A DNA stretch of 64,000 nucleotides from Batillaria attramentaria (lineage: Eukaryota > Mollusca > Gastropoda > Batillariidae). The notes under the pieces were generated by a model. That model did not search any database and had not been told where the DNA came from. It worked only from the letters and a program-made list of their open reading frames with translations. A program made the translations under genes and the position numbers. The stretch spans positions 452,501-516,500 of the forward strand of contig JACVVK020000170.1 in the NCBI GenBank assembly GCA_018292915.2, in the 5' to 3' direction. Of this stretch, positions 7,202-57,926 are shown in pieces; the first letter of the stretch is position 1; each line of letters starts with the position of its first letter.

Positions 7202-8630
7202 GAAAAAAATAATAATAATGTCCCACATGGAGAAAAGTGACTTTGACACTTTGAAAGCACTAGAAGTACCACTACCAATAATAACAACACAACAATAACA
7301 ACATCAACATTAATAATGATAATAATATCCCACATGGGGGAATTTGACACTTTGAAAGCAGGGGGGGAAAGCCTTACAAATAAGCTGGAACTTTTTTTTT
7401 TTTTTAAACCACTGTCCTCTTCTGCTTGCAGATGTACAACATGATGGTGTTCATCTTCATGCTTTTCCTGCCCGTCATCGCCATGGTCATCCTGTCGGTC
7501 AAGGTCATCAAGAAGGTCAACATGACCGTTGCCGTGGGGACGATCAACGGGCCCATCGGAAACGGGACGACCACCACCAACACAGGCCAGACGATACAGA
7601 CCCGTTCACTCAAGGTAACTCTTACATTCGTGGGAGGGCATCGGATAGTGAAGGGGGTGGTTGTATTGTCCGAGCTCATCATGCAATTTCGCCAGTACGG
7701 GAGGTTTGGAGTTCGAGTCCCACTCGCACAATGACGCAAGTGTATACACAGTAAACTGACGCGTAGCACGTGCAACCGATTTCCGCGAACATTCACCTGC
7801 AGGCAAAGGGCATTTCCAGTTCCCACTGACCCTCATTCACGTTACGGCGGCAGAGGCCAGTAGCCAGGGTAAATATTCTGTTACCTGCCTCCGCTAGTCG
7901 AGTTAGCGGCGAAATGAAAATTAAGGGTTTTTTTGTTGTTGTTTTTTTGCTGCCCCAACTCTTTGCCAACTCCAGTGGTGTTCCTCCCAGGTGATGGGTG
8001 GAACCCATGGAGGACTCGGAAGCTGGGGCAATTTTTATTATGCATGATGATGGAGATGAGGATGATAGTAAGATGATGCTATGGCGGTCCATGTGGTTTG
8101 GGACTGCGGGACAGGGCCACATTCCACGCTTCCTGTCATAAATATCCCGGCATTAACCAGGCCTAGGAACTGCGGCACCTGCGGTGCCGGCCGTGTAATC
8201 ATCCACATCATAAGACGTGTCATACTAAGGGAAGCACCCCCAAAGTCGCACTCGTGAAGTGGGTGAAAGTCGGCTGTGTGGCAACAGCCTCCCCATCGGG
8301 CCCATAGCACACCCGCTCTGGGTAGGAGCCGACCTAGGTAGGAAAAATCCCGCTTGCCTCGGCTGGGATTCGAACCCGGGTCTCCCGGTCCATGTTCCGA
8401 AGTGCTAACCACTACACTACGGGGGCCGGTGAAAATTAAGTTCTTTGTTGTTGTTGTTTTTGTTGTTGTTGTTGTTGTTGTTTTTAAAAACACCATCCAG
8501 TGGCGCGTGTCCGCAGTATCCGCTGATGGCACACGCACAGGAAGGATATTACAAACACGCTAATTCGACTACAAAGGTATTATTTTGATATGCTCGAACT
8601 GTGATAGGACATGTATAACTTGACCATGTC

Positions 8631-44840: not shown

Positions 44841-47800
44841 TTACTCGTCTGCTGGGTCTTCCTCCATATCAGCTTCGTCCTCCGCCATGGTAGCGGTCGC
44901 CCTGAGCACCTCCTGCCCCCTTTCCATGTACAACTGTTCTTCACGCACTTCAGATGCTCCACTAAATTGAATACCACCACTCCCTGCCTCTCCCAATTCT
45001 TGCGAGGCTGCTTCAGACTGCTTATTCTGATCAGCAGAGTCTTCTTTCTTTTCTGCAGCTTTTGCTGTGACCTGTGTATCATCTGGTAGTGGTATGGCTG
45101 TGATAGGTGTGAACGAACTTTGCATTTCACCGGTGTTGTGAACTTCGTCGTCGTCGTAGTCAACGTCTGTGTTGTTGCCGTCATCAAAACTGCCCATGCC
45201 CGCGTCGAGTTTCTTGGGCACCTGGTCAGCACCCTCCACCTCCATTACTTCACCCTCCTCTTTCACACTCCCGCCCTCCAGACCCTTCTTCTCCCCCTTG
45301 CTTCCCTCCCCCTCTCCACCCTTGGGTGCTACCACCACCTCCCGATCTCCCAGCTCGATACGTGACCCTTCCACCTCCTCCTCCATTTCCTCGTCCTCGT
45401 CTTCGTAGTGCATCTCCGACTGCTTTTTCTTCGCCTCATGGTGGCTCGACTTCTTGTCCCGTGAGTGCCGGCTGCTCCGTGCCGTGTCCTTGGTCGACTC
45501 TTTCTCTCCTCGAGAATGGTGCTCATCGTCTGCGTTTTCTTTGTCAGGCATGCCTGTGCTGTCTCGACGCAGGCGCGACCGGATGCGCTCCTCCCGCTCC
45601 ATAACCTCGTTGATCTCCCTCTCCAAGGCGTCGCTCTTTTCCTTCAGCATTTCTGAAGCACAATAATACGAGTTTAGATGACGTTACTCAGTGAACCATA
45701 GCAGTCCTAACTGATGCAAACTTGAACCTACCACTGTATCAGCTTATAACGCTGAGGAAAATAGCGACATTACCGGAAAACAAGAAAAGCAAGCACTCAC
45801 ACTTGTCTATCTTGATCAGTTGACCAACAATTTTTTGCATTGTTGTTTTTCCAACATCAGATTATGAAATTTCTTCTTCTTCTTCTTCTCTTTCTGAAAT
45901 GTGCAGCTGGTGCCCATGAGAAAGAATCCACTCAATCTAGCGGTTCAATTACCCAATCAAATTTCAAACAGAATGCCAAGGACAAAAAGGAAGAAACATC
46001 TCACTCACTGTCAACAACCCGCTTTGAATCCTTCAGCCTGGTCTGTGCAGCTGAAGTCATGGTCTTGGGTAGCCAAAATATGCGTGGTTTGGCGTGAGTA
46101 CAGATGAAGTTTTGCAGTTTCTTAGTCTCTGCCACTAGTGCCTCATGCTGAAAATGAGAGGTAACTGGTTGTACGTTCATGCTGCTGCCTCAGAGACAGA
46201 AAATACAAGCACGCAAAATCAAACCGTAGTAGCATGATGGGGGTTGATGTCCTACAGAGAAAAATGGTAACCTTTGCGCAGTAATATGCTGTACACATAT
46301 TGCAGCCATTGTCATGTGTGGAAGTACATGTACCACCACATACCCAAACTGAAATGTAAAATTAAAAACAACATGGTAACAGAACTGACATAAAGAAAAA
46401 ACCGTCAAGTTTTGCATTTCACTTGTTCTCTGACACCCAACACCAACAGCTGGTTGTTATTTACATGTAGACCAAAATGCAGAATCTGTCAATGCAGGCA
46501 GACCATAATATTATCTTCACAATCAGTGATCTCTCACCTCGCTAACCAACTCCATTTTCTGTTGGAGACGAGTGATTCTGGCTTGCTCCTGCTGTGACTT
46601 TTCAATCAACTCCTGTGTTTCCTGCCGGTACTGCTGCTTCTCTCGCTCGGCATCAGCTTCTAGCTTTTTCTCGATCTTCCGCCGCTTCTCAGCCTGCACG
46701 CACGCCACAAGCATAATTATTTTCTCTCACAGAATCAGATACAACCTTTGTTTCAGTTCCTTAATACCTAACATTATCTACAGAGCAGAGCAAAATTTGG
46801 GTCAGCACAATCCTGATAATTACTGTCCTACGGTACCTGACTTAAAAAGTCTACAGGAGTAAAGCTTAATCATGTCAACTGGCTGAATAACTTTTGCTGT
46901 CAGAACAGATGCTAAAGATGTATTCCTGTAAAACTAAAAAAAAAAACAAAAAAACACACGCACAAAACTTTGTGCATGTCTGGTACCTTTTGACCATGAG
47001 CCTGTTCTTCTGTCTTGAATTTCTGCAAAGTCCCCAGCAGCAAACCAAACATTCGCCTGTTTCTGTAAAGTGTAGAGAGAGAGAGAGGAAAAAATCAAGC
47101 ATTATGATCACGTGTGCCAGTAAAATGACTCGAACGTTCTTCTACTTTGTAAATTGTTTTTTTTTGTTTTTTTTTTAAAGCTTATGTTTAAAAGAAAAAA
47201 AAGTTATTCATACACATCAATCATGTCAAACTTCAGAAAATTCACTGCAATTAGTGCAAATAGTCATTAGTTGCGACAAAATCAGATACAAATTAACCAC
47301 AAAAAAAACAAAAAACAAAACGAGCAGAACACAAGCTAGGCAACTTGCTAAGACGATTGTACATGTAGTCAAACATTTACTGTCCATCACAGACCCACAA
47401 TTACACACTTAGAGAACAAAATTTTATAAAAACCCACCTTTGCATGCCTTCTCTATCACTGCTCTGTTCTGCAAGAGAGTCTTTCCGACTGCGTGTGTCT
47501 TTAGGGGTAGCCACCACCGATGACTGGACAGTGAGCTGTAAAACACAAATTACAATGCAAACTTCAAATACAATGACATAAAAAATACAGTAAACGAATG
47601 CCAGGAGTAAGAGTTTTAATGCGTATTGTGCTGACAATAAATTTAAATTTACTGTCCTGCCCTTACCCCTGCGTATAATATGTACAGCCTCATCTCTGTG
47701 AAAGTCGAGACAGTCCAGTGGGAACAGCTTTCAACAGGTCCAGCACTTTTCATTTTCCATTTTCATTGTTGGACAAAAAAGAAAATAAAGAAACACACAC

Positions 47801-50755
47801 ACACACAAGAACAAACCTTTGTCCGAAGTTCATCCTCATCACCACTGTCCTCTCGCTCCCTCCTCCTGGCTGGCACCGGCCCCAGTCTACATGAAATATG
47901 CAATAAAGGCGATAAGCAAAAGCAGTTAGCACAATGAACACCATCAGGTACAACGTGGAGCCTTTTCTTTGTATTTTTCCACTAAACCAAATATAAACTG
48001 AGAGTGAGACTAGTGAGAGCTCACGCCAACAGGTTAGTTAAGTGGTTCACACAAAGGAGGAGAGAGAGAGAGTATGAGAGAAAGTTATCAGTAAGAATAC
48101 TAATAGGGCAATATCGACGTTATGAGAAGACTGAATGTTTTAATTCAATTCAACTAAGTTTTAATAAATGCATGCACATCTATCTAACACTAGTAACAGT
48201 TACACACCTGGCAAAGGCTCCACCAAAGTTTCTCCTCTTGGTCGGTGGTGCTCCCCCGCCGTCATCTGGGACAATCGCTCTCCTGGACACAGCACAGGAA
48301 GCATTGAATTATAGTATGCAGCAGTAAATTTATTATACTTCATGAAAATACTGGTAGGTCAGGTCTTCACTTGACTCAGCCCAAATTAATTCAAAGAGGA
48401 AGATTGCATAACACTGGCATCATTGCACAGAAATCAAGAACACATGGTGAAGTGTGCAAGACCACAACTTTAAATTTAATGGACAGTTCTGAATGTACCT
48501 GGCAAGGTTGAAAAGTCGTCCTCTACCCCTGCCATCTTGCTGTCGGCCTCTTCCAGCTCCACTTCCAGCCCTGGAAAAACAAAACCACATAAAATACTTC
48601 TGGTCATCATTTGTAACCAACCGAAGGTGCCCTAAGAGGTTTCCGGGGGGGCATGCCCCCCCCCCCCCCCCCCCGAAATTTTTTTAAATCTAGAATAAAA
48701 TCTGTGCAATCTGATGCACTCTGACTGCAAAACTGCACACAAACTAGGATGAAAACATTCAGAAAAGATATATATATGCTATTTTTTTGTTTTGTTTTAT
48801 CATACCATCAAACATCTTTGTTTTTGTGGTCTTCATTCGATTTCACACAACCCTTGAAAGAGCATGTTGACAAGACAAGACAAGATATTTTATTCAATCC
48901 CATAAAAAGGGAATTACAATCCCCACAATGACAATGCTTGAGTTGAGTTGAGGTCACTCATGCATCATCCAGACTACTCTCAACTTCAGATAAGCCATGA
49001 CACTGGTCTCTCAAAATAGAATTTTTTCTACAGTAGAGCCTCACTTGGCAACTAAGTTGGTCGCCCAAGTCACAGACACTCATGGTGGTGTCCGGACCCC
49101 TTCCCAGGAGCGCATGTCAACCATAGAGATCACGGCATAATTAGGACATGTATGCATAAATGTGACTCAGTAGCAGAGTTTGGTGTTTCTGTGGAGTCTT
49201 TTAGTAATCCAGACTGTGTGGCTTTACCTAAATTTGAGCGACAGATAACCTGTCCAAACGCTGTACACTGGTGACATACCACTTTACCAGTGTTGCTCAA
49301 CTTGCTGGTTTTCTAGGTGTCAAATCACCGTTTAGTCTGGTTGAATTCCCAGCGGCATCAAAGTCTCTCTTTCTCCCACCGTCAAGGTGGCAATGACACG
49401 CACACACACACACAAATATCCAAATGACAAACACCGACATCCCGGCGTTGCCGATTTGCTAAGTGTCAAATCACTGAATTCCCAGCGGCAGTTTCCGATT
49501 TCTTTTTGTGAAACATGAAAACAAGGAGGATTAGTAATAGTATTAGTTACCACACTATACCTATCAAATGTCCGCCTTAATTCGCTCACACACACACACT
49601 GGCATACAAAGAAACTCATTCACACGCATCGACAAGACACCCAATCACGCATGCGCGTGATTGGGTGTCTTGTGAAAACAATGGTCAGTGATTTGACAGG
49701 TGTAAAGGACAATGGAACTGGCGGATACGGCGACCACCACCCACATAGCTGCAGTTGTGTTTAGCCAGGGGCAATGTGCTAATTCAGTAACTGCTCTGTC
49801 CTAAGACTCCTTGTCAGCGGTCACACATGCACACAATTTTAATTTTTATTCTGATTCTTTTTTTCTTCCACGGAACCTAACTTGTTCTAGGCGGAAATGG
49901 ATTTCTGAAATGCGGAAATTTGTGGAACCACAGAGAATTTCAACCCCTGACGTAGTAATGCTAACACTAGCATCAGTATTGGCGACCAGTACAGGTAACA
50001 CCCACTTTACAATATACCCCCCCCCCCCCCCACTTTGTGCATGCTTGGCATGTGCTTGATTTTCATTCAGAACAGCCCCACACATGCACACACATATATA
50101 CTTGGAATTGGATTGGAAGCTTCATGCACATTTCATTATTATCAATGTTGGTGTACACATTATGTATGAAGATCAGACTGGTACTGAGGTGACTGTACTT
50201 TGTCAGTTTGTGAATGAGTAGATTAACTGGGAGAACCTTGATGAGTTTACAACTTCACAAACACACATACGTACAAGATCAGCCAGGTCATTATCACGAT
50301 GTCTGAACGTAAGAGTAAGAATGATACTTTCTCTGAGAGTGTGACTGGCCCTTGCCGAGTGTGAAACAAAGGGGAAGGGGAAGACCCGACATCTTGAATA
50401 AAATGGTTGCAATCAACGATTCCGCAGACGAATATCTGTAATTGCAACGCAGACTCCATGACAACAACCTCACAGCGTCTAGGCTGGATCTACAAATGTA
50501 CTATGCCAAACACTCCTACTCCTAAGTCCACGAAGTCACACAAAGCGGAGGGGAAAATCTTTACCGTTGACACCGGCCAACATCGAAGTACCGTATCACT
50601 TCACACATGAACGCAAATAAATCATAACGTACATACCTTATGTCTTCAGGATCACGGCCGGTTAATTTCTTGATATTTTCGTTAACATCTTTCAGTTTGT
50701 CTTTAGCCTTTTCGATTTCATGCAGCAGAATACTAGCTCCACGCATCTCCGCCAT
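44841..50755 (-). CDS. PNN: Pinin, nuclear splicing-associated protein
   Basis: Nuclear speckle protein associated with the exon-junction complex and alternative splicing; in vertebrates also described at desmosomes. Exons 50755-50637, 48570-48499, 48282-48208, 47886-47817, 47535-47438, 47062-46987, 46693-46538, 46147-46009, 45652-44841; phases join to 538 residues (human 717). The N terminus has KLKDVNENIKKLTGRDPEDI. A GR-rich segment (GRGRQQDGRGRGR) follows, then VQSSVVATPKDTRSRKD and RRMFGLLLGTLQKFK (about 147-161). A long coiled coil covers about 171-300. The second half (about 300-538) is Glu/Asp-rich with HSRDKKSSHH and no long RS or poly-Ser tract, so it is shorter than the vertebrate protein. 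Divergent from TRAPPC6B across a composite transposon. Repeats lie in intron 1. Confidence 0.95.
48860..48945 (-). mobile_element. LINE 3' tail, minus strand
   Basis: Minus-strand text ends AATAAAATATCTTGTCTTG with repeated TTGTC, preceded by CCCTTTTTATGGG. A pentamer-repeat LINE tail like that at 966. PNN intron 1. The adjacent 49290-49500 contains GAATTCCCAGCGGCA twice. Confidence 0.5.
49632..49673. repeat. Short near-perfect palindrome
   Basis: ACAAGACACCCAATCACGC is followed after ATGC by its exact reverse complement, GCGTGATTGGGTGTCTTGT. 19-bp arms, 4-nt loop, in PNN intron 1. Function unknown. Confidence 0.9.
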
Positions 50756-50804
50756 CTTGCTACTTACGACGGTTGCCTCGTTTTCGACTACATGTGCACT
50801 TCCG
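50756..50804. promoter_or_regulatory. PNN-side half of a split divergent promoter
   Basis: Only 49 bp lie between the PNN start codon and the composite element at 50805. They end in TGCACTTCCG, and the next base makes CACTTCCGG, an ETS-family consensus. The same TGCACTTCCG recurs at 54730-54739 on the TRAPPC6B side, as a target-site duplication would. Confidence 0.7.
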
Positions 50805-52987
50805 GTCCTACTACCAAATCCTGCCCGGAAGTGTCAAGCCTGCCCAGGGCTGCCCGGTCCCTACTGCCCGGGTTTTCCGGGGCTGGCTTACCGTGACTGC
50901 TCGGCCGGAATTCTGGGGCTGACATAATGTAAAGAAGTGGATGTGGCCTTAATTAACAAACTTTATTCTTTATTCTTCTTTATTCAGCCCCTATTATGTT
51001 GTTTCGTGCACTTTCCATCAGCCTGACGTGTCAAGATGTTTCAGTTTCATGAGTGTGAACTGACTCGGATCGGGAAGCACTATGATGCTCAGTAGGGATG
51101 TACATGCACTGAGTTGTATTTTTAAAATGCCATTTATGCTACAAATACCATTTATTATTATTATTATTTACACAGATCCACCCATCACGTCAGTTATTGT
51201 CTTTGCTCTTGGAGACCGGCATTTGTAGATTCAGTTCTTTTTAATTTATTCTCAAATGTGTTGTACGTTGTCAGTTTTCGTATAAAATTTCACAAATATA
51301 ACGTGAGGCGGTCTCACACACTCACTCCGCTTTCACATCACAGATCAGTATTCAGGAAGGCACGCATGCAAAACCTCATTCACTCCCTTTCATACACACA
51401 AGCAAATCAGTAGTTATTCCTTTTGACTGAAACCTTATAATGTAGACAAAACAATCACACAAGTAACCAATCCGGCAGTCAACACACTGAAAATATTAAT
51501 AGATAACAAACTGACTGAATGTACAAGGTCAAGTGAGTAACGGCCTTATTTAAAAAGATGCTGCAGACTTGTTGAAGACTTGTTGGTCTTGACTGCAAAA
51601 ACTACTATGATGTTCACGTCCAGACGATTCCTCTGGGAATTCTGGAGATCCACCGCTTTATTCACAATCTCGTGGGATGAATAATACAATATACGACGAA
51701 GGCACTTCTTCAAGAAGTGACTGGAACAGTGCTGGACCGCAGCCGGGCACCCTCAATTCACACGTAATTCGCGGCTGAGGATCAGACAAGGAAAAACGGC
51801 TTCACTTTGACACGGCGCTCGGTTGGATGGCTGCACTGACGTGACCTCAAGGGGAAACAGAAAACACGCCGCTGGCTTTAAGGTCAGAGCGACGGGGCAG
51901 ACAATAGAACACTGTAATATGGTGTCATCTATGCTGATCAAGCGGACTCAAAATTTGATTAGGCGGTCAGCTCACCGGGTCTCCGGCGTCGTTCATGTAC
52001 AATATTAATCCGTGATTAATCAGTACCGCTATCTCGGATAGTCAGTATTAACTGCGCAGTCTTTGTGGAAAACGGTCACCTCGTATTCTGAAAACTACTC
52101 AGGTCTACCTACAACAGCCTCGAGCAAGGGATAACAACTCGGAAAAAGCTATAGTCGTGCGTAGGCATTTTTCCTGCACTGACGAGAAAACGTTAGGTAG
52201 ACTGGGATAAAATACAGTACAGTACTACCTGTCCATAACACAAATTTAACAGTTCGCACTACTCATGAAAATACAATTTAAAAACTGCAAACCACATAAT
52301 TTATGCAAACCCGTAAATGCGGCTGGTTTGTCACAATAAACAACAGCCGGAGTGGTCCATTTACCGTCTTTGCCCGGCCAGTTTAACCAAATACAGCATC
52401 AGCTTAACCATCATAGCGGGCGTTCTAAAGTACCTAGATTCTTTCAATAAAATACAGCTGAAAGAGCGTGAAAAACGCTTTTAAACGATATAAGTTTCAG
52501 ATGTTGCTAAGCGGATCCGGCCGGGGAATTTCCTACAGCGGCTAAGAGGGCCGAATAACAGGGACTTCACTTTTGAAAAGGTATGCGGAAAATGCTAATT
52601 TACAACCCTTTAGCTATAACATCGGGTAAAGACCAAAACATGGTTAAAAAGTACTAACTTTCTTTATACTAATACAATCAAAAGAATAACTTTAGGTCAA
52701 CCGACTGAGGAGAAAATGGATCTTAGACATGGACAAACAAACACAACTAATCGTCACTAGAGCCGGATGAGCCATCGTGGATGCAAACTTGAAACACCGT
52801 TATCCCCCTGTTAATGGGGTGGGGACTAGTGGCCGGGTGTAGGGCTGGCCAGGGAACAAAGAGCTGGTGGGCGAGAGGTAGGAACCACTCGAGGCCACAT
52901 GCACTTTTCTCATTACACCAGTAAGTCAGTCCAGGGCAGCAAGTACCGGGCAGTAGGGACCGGGCAGTTTTGGACAGTATTGAGTAG

Positions 52988-54243
52988 TCCCGGTGTAGCA
53001 TCCGGTCCGGTCCCCCCTCTGAAGTAGTCCCCCGGGGGACCAATTCGTGGCAAAAACTGCTCTATAATGGTCCCCCCCTTAGACATCCAGCCTCGTTTTC
53101 GACTGGTCCCCCTGGGCGATTTTGGTCCCCCCTCGCATCCAAAATAGGCCCCCTCTCGAACTGGTCCCCCTCTTTTCTAACCAACGTAGAGCTATGTCAG
53201 TATTTATTTTTAACTTTATTGTTACAAAACTTTATTGTCCCCAAAAGCACAGGGCCATAGGAACATTTTTTTTCTTTTTTTTCCGATTTATGTGCTTGTT
53301 GTTATTTTTGTGTGTGTGAGATATATTTGTTTGGTTGTGTTCTTGTTTCTTTCAGTTGTTTTTTTTGCATTGGTTCTTTTTTGCTGTCCACATTTCCTGT
53401 CATTTTTTTTAAACTGGAAATAGCATTTAGAGAATAACATCAAAGACCAAGTATCTAATATTTTCTATACAACGCCATAGAAAAAATATTTCTTCAAAAT
53501 TAAGTAAGTGTCCATGACATGAAAACTAGTTGCCACCTTTGGCTTTCAGCGTACTTCAAGTAGACAGTCAAGACTGAGTACCAGTGTCTCAAATCATGAC
53601 CCTTGAAACAACAAAAACAGCAGAAGACTAACAGTTCTCAGGCTGGTCTAAGGAGTGACACAAAAAACAGGAGCAAAGTGATGTCCAAGATTCATTATAT
53701 AAATTACTCTGTCTGTTTTCAATGGGGCCGATTGCCAAACTGGCCCGTATTTCAGCCACCTAGGTTGTCGGCCTGGAGCCTCTCTTGTGAACACATACAC
53801 GGGCGTGTCCAAGAGGGTGGCTGCAGCAAATATCTCAACCTCGGTGGCCCAAGTACGGAATGAATTGTCGTGTACTTATAATTATAGGCATGTTTGACAC
53901 GAGTCACGTGACGTGTCAAGAAGCGTGGCGACCGTTTTCTCATCCCACAAAAAAAAAAAAAGAAAAGAGAAAACAAATCTAAACTTTTAAAAGTGATTTA
54001 ACTTCGTAGATTTGCCGTTCTATGTAGCCTATACTTTTGTTTTTTAGTGGCGACCGTTTTCTCATCCCACAAAAAAAAAGAGAAAATAAAAAAACAAAAG
54101 TATAGGCTACATAGAACGGCAAATCTACGAAGTTAAATCACTTTTAAAAGTTTAGATTTGACACTGTAACCTTGACCCAGTTCAAGATCATCTTGAATAA
54201 CATCTCTGTACAAAAATGAAAATAATTATACATATAACGAAAG

Positions 54244-54299
<56 letters not shown>

Positions 54300-54713
54300 T
54301 TGCGTGCGTGCGTGCGTGAGTGAGTGTGCACGCGTGCGTGCGTGCGTGCATAATGTGTGTGTGTGTGTGTGTGTTTGAGAGATGGGGGGAGGAGAGAAAG
54401 TGTGGGGGGCGAGAGAGAGAGAGAGAGAGTGTGAGAGAGATCCAGAGTCACGTTTTCTACTGAGTTGACACACACTATAACAATAAAGTTAAAAATAAAT
54501 ACTGACATAGCTCTACATTGGTTAGAAAAGAGGGGGACCAGTTCGAGAGGGGGCCTACTTTGGATGCGAGGGGGGACCAAAATCGCCCAGGGGGACCAGT
54601 CGAAAACGAGGCTGGATGTCTAAGGGGGGACCATTATAGAGCAGTTTTTGCCACGAATTGGTCCCCCGGGGGACTGCTTCAGAGGGGGGACCGGACCGGA
54701 TCCTACACCGGGA
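52988..54713. mobile_element. Fold-back unit with 236-bp inverted arms
   Basis: The left arm 52988-53222 and right arm 54479-54713 are reverse complements with few differences, from TCCCGGTGTAG to TTTTTAACTTTATTG. Each arm carries about seven GGTCCCCC-type motifs spaced roughly 15-40 bp apart, a pattern expected of repeated transposase-binding sites. The centre has a second hairpin (53975-54159) and a GT/GA run (about 54247-54440), and no gene. Confidence 0.87.
53975..54159. repeat. Hairpin inside the fold-back unit
   Basis: AAATCTAAACTTTTAAAAG (53975) is the start of a 72-bp arm mirrored essentially perfectly at 54088-54159. The loop carries a second copy of GTGGCGACCGTTTTCTCATC, also found just left of the hairpin (about 53925). 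This suggests duplication with inversion. Confidence 0.9.
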
Positions 54714-54739
54714 ATGTTTAGTAGGACCCTGCACTTCCG

Positions 54740-54799
54740 AAAGCCTTCAGCCAATGAAGAGAATCGTTACTAGCACACTTCGGTCTCCGATCAACAATG
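54740..54799. promoter_or_regulatory. TRAPPC6B-side half of the split promoter
   Basis: 60 bp between the right-hand TGCACTTCCG copy and the TRAPPC6B ATG contain CAGCCAATGAAG, a CCAAT box. Together with 50756-50804 this is all that remains of the original intergenic space. Confidence 0.6.
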
Positions 54800-56057
54800 A
54801 TGGCAGACGAAGTTCTCTTCGAGTTCCTCCACATGGAATTAGTGGCTCTTATTCACCGAGATGCTGTCAAAGACGAAAAGGTGAGAGACCTGTGTTATTG
54901 ACGATTCACCCCCATTGTGCTGGGCTGCAGCACTGCGTTTATCAGGGGAACGGAATGTCCCAAACACGCCCCCTCACACTTCATGCTTCCCCCCAGACTC
55001 GGAGGAATGATCAATTGCACAACTAGGAAAACAACGTATTACTATGTCTTTGGTACAAGGTACGTTCATGAATTTCAATGCAAATTTCTCCTTTCAGGAT
55101 GGTTGCATCGCAAAGCTGGAAAGCATCGGATTCCGTGTGGGACAGAGTCTAATAGAGAGGTAACTGAGTAACATGAATTTTTGCCATTAATTTTTTCAAT
55201 GCTTGTTTTTGCTAACACAATAATTTTTGTTGTAATGTGCAATCATGATTCACGAAAGATCAATTAATGTGTCTTAGTTCAGAATCTTCCCTGATTTTGG
55301 TGCTTTGTTTTCTTGATTAGATTTACAAAAGACTGCTCACGGTTCAAAGATGAGCTGGACACCATGAAGTTCATCTGCAAGGATTTCTGGAACTCTGTAT
55401 ACAAGAAACAGATCGACAACCTCCGCACAAATCACCAGGTATAAAGCCTACTCTGTTGTGGAACAGTTTCAGATATCCCTCCATCTTTCTCTCCCGCCAA
55501 TTGGTTGCTCTGGTTAAATTGTAGGAAGCATTGTTGCAAGTGTAATTCAGTATGATTTTATTGTCTTATTAAAACTTATATAATCTTATGTAAATTTCTG
55601 ACTGACTAGATGCTAACAGTATACATCAGAAGTACAATTTACATGTACCAGTATGTACAGTGCTGTCTTGGTGTAATTTGTATCTTGGCATTTTGTAACA
55701 GGGTGTATACGTTTTGCAAGACAACAAGTTCCGTTTCCTGACACAAATGTCAAATGGTAAACAGTACATGGAAGCAGCACCAAAGGTAAATATTGAAAAT
55801 GTTTGTGGTACAGTGTATGGTGGTGGGGGTGGTAGTGTGGCGTGGGTTGGCTTGGCGTGTGGTGTGGTGGGGTGTGTTGTGTGCAGACTGTGGTGTAATA
55901 TTTATTCGTACATGTCATGTCATGTCATGTCCGCTATGCCCTTGCCATCTTTTAGTTTAGATTTCTTAGTTTAGTTGCATAGTATTAGACTTGGACATCA
56001 CACATTACTTTAGGATCTGTGTTTAATATGTATGGATTTATATGTCTAGATAAATTA

Positions 56058-56112
<55 letters not shown>

Positions 56113-56712
56113 AGCCAGAAGAAAATTTTCTGCCATCGACAGACAATAAAGTTATATTGAATTGAATTGAATTGAATGTACTCTTGGAAAGTGTATTAAT
56201 TTATAATACATTAAGTTGATAATCTGATGTGTTCTTCTATAGGTCAGTTTGATATTTAGTCTGGTGCTTATGTGTGTTTGTGTTCACAGTACCTGGCATT
56301 TCCTTGTGGACTGATACGAGGAGCACTTTCTAGTCTGGGGATCAACTGTATTGTGACAGCTGAAGTCAGTGCTATGCCAGCATGTAAGTACATCAAGCAT
56401 TTGTGAGTGTGTTAAAGGCTGTTGTCGCTCATCCCTCTCTCCCCTTTGCCTGTTCTGTGCAAACGACCCTGCCTTGAACAATTAGTAATAGTTCTTGTCT
56501 TACGTGAACAGTGACCCCCATACAACAAGTCACGTACTTTGGCCTTCCTACTTTTTGCTGAGGGAGTGAGAGACTGAGAGTGAGACAGGTCGCATATATC
56601 GGGGTGGCAAGGAGTCCCAGAATCGCATCTCGGCACATAATAATAATAATAAAAATACATTTTTTTTATAGAGCGCTGCTTTCCAATTTCTGAGGACTCG
56701 CTGTGCTTAAAG

Positions 56713-56767
<55 letters not shown>

Positions 56768-57632
56768 TACATCCCCTCTTACATACAATTTGGCAGTGCA
56801 ACTACTCACGGTACACACAGACAGACTTAACAGAGGTTTCACTATCAAAGGCTTGGCGAAGAGAAAGGTCTTCAGATGGGATTTAAACAGGGTCAGTGAG
56901 GTCTGAAGGCGGAGTTCGACTGGCAAGGAGTCCCAGACAGTCGGGGCTAAGAAGCGGAATGAGTGCTCTCCGGCAGTTTTCATGTTAGTATTGTTACACT
57001 TCAGAATTTTCAGAAGTTTTTCGCTAGCAGCACGTAGGGTACGAGATGGTTGATACTCACAGAGTAGGACCGACATGTAGGGAGGAAGACAACCCTCAAA
57101 GAAACGGAATGCAAAAGTGGCGATTTTGTACTGGAAGTGGAAGAACATCTTCTTGACAGCTTTGTGGGTCAATCTGGGGTTTTTCTATTTGCCTCTGAAC
57201 CAGCCTCAGCGTATGACAGTCTTTAAGATGATAACCCAGTACTACTACTAGTAGACACTGTGCACTTATAGGTTGAGCAGAATGGTACTCTAAATGGTCA
57301 CGGTACTTCAAAGACTCAAGGATGATGGGATCCTGTATTTGGAAATGCTTTATTTTTAAATTAAATTCTGTTGAAATACTTCAAAGGTCTTGACATTATT
57401 TTCAGTCACATTTGAATCAGAGAAAAATCTATAGTAATTCAAGATACAAGATTAATTTATTAATCCCTCATGAGGAAGTTTAATGTAATGGAAATTAAGT
57501 AGTAGGCCTAATGTTGTGAATGTCCTCATAGATCTGCCATTTTTATCAGCTGCCATGTTTCTCTTCTGATATTTTTCTCTTTTTTCCCTCCTGATTTCAG
57601 GCAAATTCCAGATTCAAATTCAGAGAATGTGA
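54800..57632 (+). CDS. TRAPPC6B: TRAPP complex subunit 6B
   Basis: Subunit of the TRAPP tethering complexes, which act as Rab exchange factors in ER-Golgi traffic; TRAPPC6 pairs with TRAPPC3 through its longin-like Bet3 fold. Exons 54800-54880, 55098-55159, 55321-55438, 55702-55785, 56290-56383, 57601-57632; phases join to 156 residues (human 158). It starts [15 protein letters not shown]; an in-frame ATG three bases earlier is also possible. Family wording is strong: [54 protein letters not shown], and the C terminus [13 protein letters not shown]. The last exon is only 32 nt and lies beyond a LINE insertion. AATAAA at 58158 is a plausible poly(A) signal. Confidence 0.96.
56095..56176 (+). 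mobile_element. LINE 3' tail
   Basis: After a GT run, GACAATAAAGTTATATTGAA leads into four TTGAA/ATTGA copies, a typical 3' pentamer tail. TRAPPC6B intron between exons 55785 and 56290. A similar minus-strand tail (TTGTATCTTGAATT) is at about 57438-57485. Confidence 0.55.
56650..57200 (-). mobile_element. LINE 3' fragment, long open frame
   Basis: On minus, an uninterrupted frame from about 57172 reads [31 protein letters not shown], then [15 protein letters not shown] and [11 protein letters not shown], and ends in a CA/GT run. This is the C terminus of a non-LTR reverse transcriptase. It is inserted in TRAPPC6B's last intron, antisense to the gene. Confidence 0.82.
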
Positions 57633-57926
57633 AGTCATGCTGCAGTAATGTTTTGGAGTTGAAAATTTTATTCCATAGACATGTATGTTTTTTTGTTTTT
57701 TTTTTAAACATCAAATGTGCAATAGAATGCAAATGAAGGAAATATAAAGTTCTGCGTGTACACATACTAGTACAGGTTTGCATTGCAGTAGATCAGAAGA
57801 TGATCAGTATAGTGACTATCGGTTGGTTCTTCTGAAAATTGTTTCGATGTCTTGGCTGTGCACAGTATGTGAGAAACACAGTTGTATGCTGTATTTGTCT
57901 AGGAAATGTATAACACAGAGAGAGAG

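Follow-up and report, generated by a model that had tools for sequence, protein, structure and literature searches.

A nest of three transposable elements, bracketed by a duplicated ETS-like site, in the gap between PNN and TRAPPC6B of the snail Batillaria attramentaria

What becomes of a divergent gene pair when a transposon enters the short gap between its two start codons? The question is raised by a locus of the snail Batillaria attramentaria, contained in a stretch of 64,000 nucleotides (contig JACVVK020000170.1, positions 452,501 to 516,500, assembly GCA_018292915.2; hereafter the window, in whose own numbering all positions are given). Here, PNN and TRAPPC6B lie head to head, with 4,041 base pairs (bp) between the ATG of PNN (50755, minus strand) and that of TRAPPC6B (54797, plus strand). 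The original prediction, made from the letters alone, was that a single 3.9-kb transposon had split an ancient shared promoter of the two genes by duplicating its activator site. We found the head-to-head pair to be as described, both spliced frames being open and carrying the expected Pfam domains:

44841..50755, minus strand: PNN (pinin) coding region, 9 exons, 538 amino acids (aa), spliced frame open
54797..57633, plus strand: TRAPPC6B, 157 aa encoded by 6 exons, with a spliced frame that stays open until the stop codon, Pfam TRAPP

The matches in PNN (Pinin_SDK_N and Pinin_SDK_memA) fall in its N-terminal 268 aa, and a pinin record of B. attramentaria (P0139) shows 100% identity across 42% of the PNN query region. 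The TRAPPC6B protein is 94% identical to that of Pomacea canaliculata.

Between the two genes, the 10-base sequence TGCACTTCCG exactly brackets an insert of 3,925 bp with inverted termini (GGTCCTACTA and TAGTAGGACC), in agreement with the inverted-repeat insertion flanked by an exact repeat that had been proposed. The two copies of this target-site duplication (TSD) are:

50795..50804, plus strand: TSD, PNN-side copy TGCACTTCCG, exact repeat
54730..54739, plus strand: TSD, TRAPPC6B-side copy TGCACTTCCG, exact repeat, within host sequence reading TGCACTTCCGAAAG

The window has no further exact copy; with at most one mismatch, 7 matches are found for 3.33 expected. Outside the insert, 49 host bases stand on the PNN side (50756-50804) and 67 on the TRAPPC6B side (54730-54796). 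Removal of the insert and of one TGCACTTCCG copy leaves 106 bp to the first TRAPPC6B ATG and 109 bp to the second; the 109 bp originally given is correct for the second ATG, but not for the first. For a bidirectional promoter pair, the usual criterion is a head-to-head arrangement with the two starts at most 1 kb apart. The insertion in the PNN/TRAPPC6B gap is genuine. However, it is not the single transposon first described: it is a nest of three elements of 1,163, 1,039 and 1,714 bp, with small duplications.

The first of them, element A, is an inverted-repeat element of 1,163 bp and the source of the TSD. It now lies in three pieces:

50805..51296, plus strand: element A, left part, with same-genome relatives at 6-9% substitutions and the terminal inverted repeat (TIR) GTCCTACTAAATCCTGCCCGG
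52341..52989, plus strand: element A, right part, up to a CCGG site
54712..54729, plus strand: element A, right terminus GAATGTTTAGTAGGACCC, which aligns to the left end of A once element B is removed and resembles the A ends of two relatives (L031 and L032)

With B removed, the two ends of A are identical at 71 of 90 aligned columns, which makes a TIR of about 90 bp. A genome search for A relatives listed 60 matches, from 40 scored of 257 candidates. The ends of L031 and L032 resemble GTCCTACTAAATCCTGCCCGG, of which L031, L074, L076 and L077 have exact copies. Compared with the left part of A (50904-51290 for L031 and 50896-51290 for L032), the two relatives carry 6-9% substitutions and many gaps; on the right part they align over short stretches of 48-73 columns, 11-12.5% different. 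Both are flanked by their own near-repeats of 8-10 bases. The best TSD is 10 bases, exact, in the window, 8 bases with one mismatch in L031, and 10 bases with one mismatch in L032; the joint best length is 8 (8, 7 and 5 of 8 bases), tied with 6, and the host duplication may be of 8 bases rather than 10. TSDs are of 8 bases for hAT and of 9-11 for Mutator-like elements. A resembles these elements by its inverted repeats (TIR of about 90 bp) and by a TSD that would be of 8-10 bases, and differs from them in that no transposase was found for it, so that it is assigned to neither superfamily: L074, where about 4 kb follow a single A end, contains no frame longer than 142 aa, the A frames not having been searched for domains. 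The A-type element of L074 (contig C159) and that of L075/L076 (contig C46) have the same flanking sequence on both contigs; the purged assembly may therefore still retain a duplicated haplotype there.

The second element is nested in A, and we recognized it as a solo long terminal repeat (LTR) from its homology to the ends of a coding element, its short flanking duplication and an empty site:

51297..52335, minus strand: solo LTR of a Gypsy-like retroelement, 1,039 bp, flanked by ACAAA and ATAAA

Indeed, it differs from repeats at three other loci (L028-L030) by 12-13% substitutions over 432-672 aligned columns and, in L030, such LTR-like repeats flank SCAN/zinc-knuckle (gag-like), integrase-zinc and reverse transcriptase/RNaseH frames, named here in no particular order. 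The flanking duplication agrees at 4 of 5 bases, and the A relative L031 is continuous without the LTR segment. In L029 (G000:C212:842500-852400), LTR-bearing units stand head to tail with a period of about 3,440 bp and 99.7% identity, and contain no frame of at least 150 aa; judged by its sequence, this locus is a tandem array of a retroelement derivative. An array of RNA genes was rejected for the same repeats, which give no Rfam match at gathering scores and are LTR-like instead.

The third element, B, occupies a CCGG of the right end of A; A ends without B read CCCGGG or CCCGG at this place:

52990..52993, plus strand: CCGG duplication left of B
52994..54707, plus strand: element B, non-autonomous Ginger1-type, TGTAG...CTACA, 1,714 bp, TIRs of about 230 bp
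54708..54711, plus strand: CCGG duplication right of B

The inverted arms of B, measured with the CCGG and the bases next to it, extend over 237 bp and are 98% identical (232 identical positions, 4 mismatches and a single gap), within the range of Ginger1 TIRs (about 40-270 bp), and TGTAG is found at both ends, which fits the Ginger1 5' TGTNR. According to PMC2836005, Ginger1 elements are marked by TIRs, TGTNR ends, a CCGG (or CCGT) TSD and a Gypsy-integrase-like transposase with OTU/Ulp1. B shares the TIRs, the ends and the CCGG duplication, and a longer relative, L067, carries integrase and OTU domains in a frame of 609 aa (OTU, 41.7 bits for a cut-off of 23.3; H2C2, 27.4 for 25.5; below threshold, rve at 31.1, just under 32.6, and SH3_Tf2-1 at 21.6, under 30). 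B is assigned to the Ginger1 type because of these marks. The window copy differs from the described elements in being a short, non-autonomous derivative, and its one scanned frame (53651-53875, minus strand) gave no Pfam match. A first impression that B had no TSD was rejected, the CCGG being present as in PMC2836005, and so was, by eye, a degenerate 10-bp TSD, ATTGAGTAGT/AATGTTTAGT (7 of 10 bases).

Near-full-length matches to B at other loci reach 96.9-99.6%; the best of them, L055, aligns over 1,723 columns with a single mismatch and 6 gap positions. For the B TIR, 40 of 878 candidates were scored, and the 39 further places listed all show 100% identity (rounded). Of 15 copies examined, counting that of the window, 14 have CCGG at both ends, and L072 is without the right one; these copies, retrieved by a TIR query that itself contains the left CCGG, come from the window and 13 of the 20 fetched loci. 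The seven loci omitted (L056, L057, L060, L063, L065, L066 and L067) have their far end outside the fetched stretch. Longer copies therefore exist alongside near-identical short ones, which suggests that this Ginger1 family was recently active. Inside B (53925-54160), a perfect inverted repeat of 72 bp, its arms separated by 43 bases, overlaps a 53-bp direct repeat.

Taken together, this gives an order of events: A, which contains the other two, was the earliest to arrive, the LTR and B followed, and the insertion of B is recent. We consider it probable that A (about 1.16 kb) was inserted in an ETS-like site of a divergent gap of about 106 bp, duplicating 8-10 bases, and that a Gypsy-like LTR and then, very recently, a non-autonomous Ginger1 element entered A, bringing the gap to 4.0 kb.

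Which regulatory motifs did these insertions leave in front of each gene? Candidates stand close to the start codons:

50748..50759, minus strand: CAAGATGGCGGA over the PNN ATG, resembling the translation initiator of short 5' UTR (TISU) and a YY1 site
50796..50807, minus strand: junction ETS-like site, reading GACCGGAAGTGC towards PNN, made of the TSD and the element end, with CCGGAAGTG at 50797-50805 (minus strand)
50825..50833, plus strand: second CCGGAAGTG, in the left end of A, inverted relative to the junction site
54749..54757, plus strand: AGCCAATGA, CCAAT/NF-Y-like, not above chance alone

As anticipated, A landed on the ETS-like core of the short gap, which is now present twice. Each gene does have a copy on its side, but the two are not equivalent, because the flank of the PNN copy was supplied by the element. 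Towards PNN, the junction site, composed of the TSD and the start of A, thus reads ACCGGAAGTG, whereas the TRAPPC6B side, where the flank is host sequence, keeps the native TTCGGAAGTG. The class-I ETS consensus is ACCGGAAGT, from which TTCGGAAGTG deviates. Three CCGGAAGTG sites are present in the window for 0.22 expected, and two of the three are at the PNN-side junction, as exact sites 42-78 bp upstream of the PNN ATG, inverted relative to each other with a spacing of 28 bp. One of these two owes part of its sequence to the end of the element. The second looks private to this copy of A, since none of the other fetched A ends (about ten) reads CCGGAAGTG there, most of them reading CCCGGGA. At the PNN ATG, the sequence is TISU-like, although the consensus string was not found in the text of PMC2518114; CAAGATGGCGGA is the sole exact match of the window to SAASATGGCGGM, with 6 matches at one mismatch or less for 1.05 expected. 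It also fits the YY1 motif, AANATGGN(C/G), as given in PMC3491394. In PMC2518114, TISU elements are associated with 5' leaders of median 12 nucleotides and with YY1 binding.

The age of the gene arrangement could be addressed from protein matches, of which the 120 best were used for each gene (out of 1302 for TRAPPC6B and 204 for PNN). Linkage was counted, by eye, when the host sequence was equally long in both sets, which was taken to mean the same contig. Among the 22 species present in both sets with sequence sizes, 20 showed equal sizes: Pomacea, Nucella, Argopecten, Ylistrum, Mizuhopecten, Liolophura, two Saccostrea, Patella, Lottia, Lineus, Bulinus, Biomphalaria glabrata, Ostrea, Mactra, Tubulanus, Dreissena, Lingula, Glandiceps and Centruroides, i.e., molluscs, two nemerteans, a brachiopod, a scorpion and a hemichordate. 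The sizes were unequal in two fishes, Umbra pygmaea and Oncorhynchus keta. Equal size of whole chromosomes is weak evidence that the genes are close; six of the shared contigs are shorter than 5 Mb (Saccostrea cucullata 0.54, Lingula 0.86, Mizuhopecten 1.46, Lottia 1.76, Ylistrum 2.7 and Nucella 4.4 Mb). In Patella, the gene tags are consecutive (SNE40_009509 and SNE40_009510). In human, PMC8373074 gives the order GEMIN2 rightward, TRAPPC6B leftward and PNN rightward, which agrees with the divergent arrangement stated at first. Adjacency proper is thus supported in Patella and human only, and linkage elsewhere. Lack of adjacency of the two genes in other molluscs had been named beforehand as a result that would refute the promoter-splitting idea; in molluscs they appear linked, with consecutive tags in Patella, and the pair looks anciently linked.

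From these elements, a course of events can be proposed for regulation. Before the insertion, one compact promoter would have served both genes. After it, an ETS core would stand within 70 bp of each ATG, so that activation could have survived. As motifs only, PNN has the YY1/TISU-like start and, some 42 bp upstream of the ATG, an ETS core, and TRAPPC6B has an ETS core and the CCAAT, both less than 70 bp from its own ATG. The CCAAT would have been left with TRAPPC6B only and the YY1/TISU-like start with PNN only; PNN would have lost a nearby CCAAT and gained a better-matching ETS site from the TSD and the transposon end. That one shared promoter functionally became two independently working promoters is a tentative reading, to which we give somewhat less than an even chance. 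Its stronger form is unlikely: the TSD would have divided the shared promoter at once, copying the ETS site with neither gene losing it; the transposon end would have improved TTCGGAAGTG to ACCGGAAGTG on the PNN side, the second, inverted ETS site would have arisen by later change within the element, and separate regulation would have followed as the gap filled with more transposons.

Several points weigh against this promoter division. First, with 3-6% change in each lineage (half of the divergences measured), identity is expected to persist in 38-62% of cases for an 8-base TSD pair and in 30-55% for one of 10 bases. Given such chance identity at the age of A, the perfect TSD is no sign of selection, and selection for both ETS copies, which could only be inferred, is not supported by it. 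Second, a search at up to 3 mismatches revealed no allelic empty site in the snail's own genome; its one match, at 3 mismatches, has no similarity to the gene flanks and is chance-like (reversed patterns gave 0 and 0, and about 1 match is expected by chance). The assembly, as described in PMC10382545, comprises 863 contigs and 715 Mb, with haplotigs purged. Third come the motifs. An ETS core and a CCAAT are both in the gap, as stated at first, but the CCAAT match is at chance level (7 in the window for 10.73 expected). YY1 sites over start codons are mostly repressive in a human reporter study (PMC3491394), so that the YY1/TISU-like start of PNN may not be simply an activator. Human bidirectional promoters are reported in PMC3964217 to be rich in ETS/GABPA sites, inverted ones too, but there ETS1 and mutant p53 favoured motifs about 100-200 bp apart, versus 28 bp here. 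Fourth, a 15-mer is shared by the PNN leader and the Ginger1 TIR, and part of this leader may therefore be non-ancestral:

50775..50789, plus strand: shared 15-mer, identical to Ginger1 TIR sequence at 53090-53104 and, inverted, at 54598-54612

No shuffle out of 2000 reaches 15 bases in either of two schemes; this 15-mer may be a coincidence or an old Ginger1 scrap. Finally, according to PMC8373074, the human pair has separate, poorly compacted start-site regions. A single shared promoter is therefore not universal.

An alternative is a neutral insertion, an explanation that has, in our view, an even chance of being right. The structure would be the one described, the ETS-like core not being a relevant activator or being used by one gene, and both genes would start from their own ATG-proximal elements, with no regulatory consequence. 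Indeed, a TSD is an automatic by-product of transposition and its identity is uninformative at the age of A, the native TTCGGAAGTG departs from the class-I consensus, PNN has a YY1/TISU-like start on its ATG, and the human start-site regions are separate. On the other hand, A landed exactly on the ETS-like core of a 106-bp gap, and PNN now has its two exact CCGGAAGTG sites, two facts that sit better with a regulatory effect. It is improbable that the elements, rather than the duplicated host site, drive one or both genes, with starts supplied by the A ends or the LTR. LTR promoters are common, the left end of A carries the second CCGGAAGTG and the LTR is about 540 bp from the PNN ATG, but this LTR is far from both ATGs and 12-13% diverged from the L028-L030 copies. 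Slightly less probable still is an artefact of assembly or allele, in which the nest or the young Ginger1 copy would be one allele or a misjoin and many snails would have a shorter gap: the evidence comes from a single purged assembly and B, so close to L055, may be polymorphic, but the elements are neatly nested (CCGG left and right of B, agreement of the LTR flanks at 4/5 bases and of the TSD of A at 10/10), and a random misjoin would not give such flanks.

Elsewhere in the window, we observed a 46-bp tandem repeat at 1-552 (12 copies, 99% match) and, at 8355-8426 on the minus strand, a tRNA match of 35 bits, the only Rfam match of the window at gathering scores.

In the open-licence literature, the titles and abstract openings listed revealed nothing on a PNN/TRAPPC6B promoter or on a TSD splitting a shared promoter, which is weak evidence of absence. 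Two known systems can be compared with this locus. Disentangled bidirectional promoters, described between amphioxus and vertebrates (PMC6292497), likewise concern conserved head-to-head housekeeping pairs whose starts separate; there, disentanglement is suggested to follow genome duplications, insertions not being mentioned in the passages concerned, whereas here a transposon on the motif is visible in the sequence. The GABP/ETS bidirectional promoters (PMC3964217) are alike in their ETS-like cores between divergent genes, with an inverted ETS pair here at the PNN side; they differ in that one copy here comes from the TSD and the transposon end, the spacing is 28 bp and not 100-200, and our sites are predicted, whereas the data of that study are human.

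That ancient bidirectional promoters separate in evolution is known, but the separating step itself is seldom visible. Here, the agent, its exact target and the order of the later insertions are all readable. If the promoter division is true, each gene would be expected to have an ETS site of its own, the two differing in strength, and insertions within a shared motif could be tallied genome-wide as one way for paired genes to gain independence with their activation kept.

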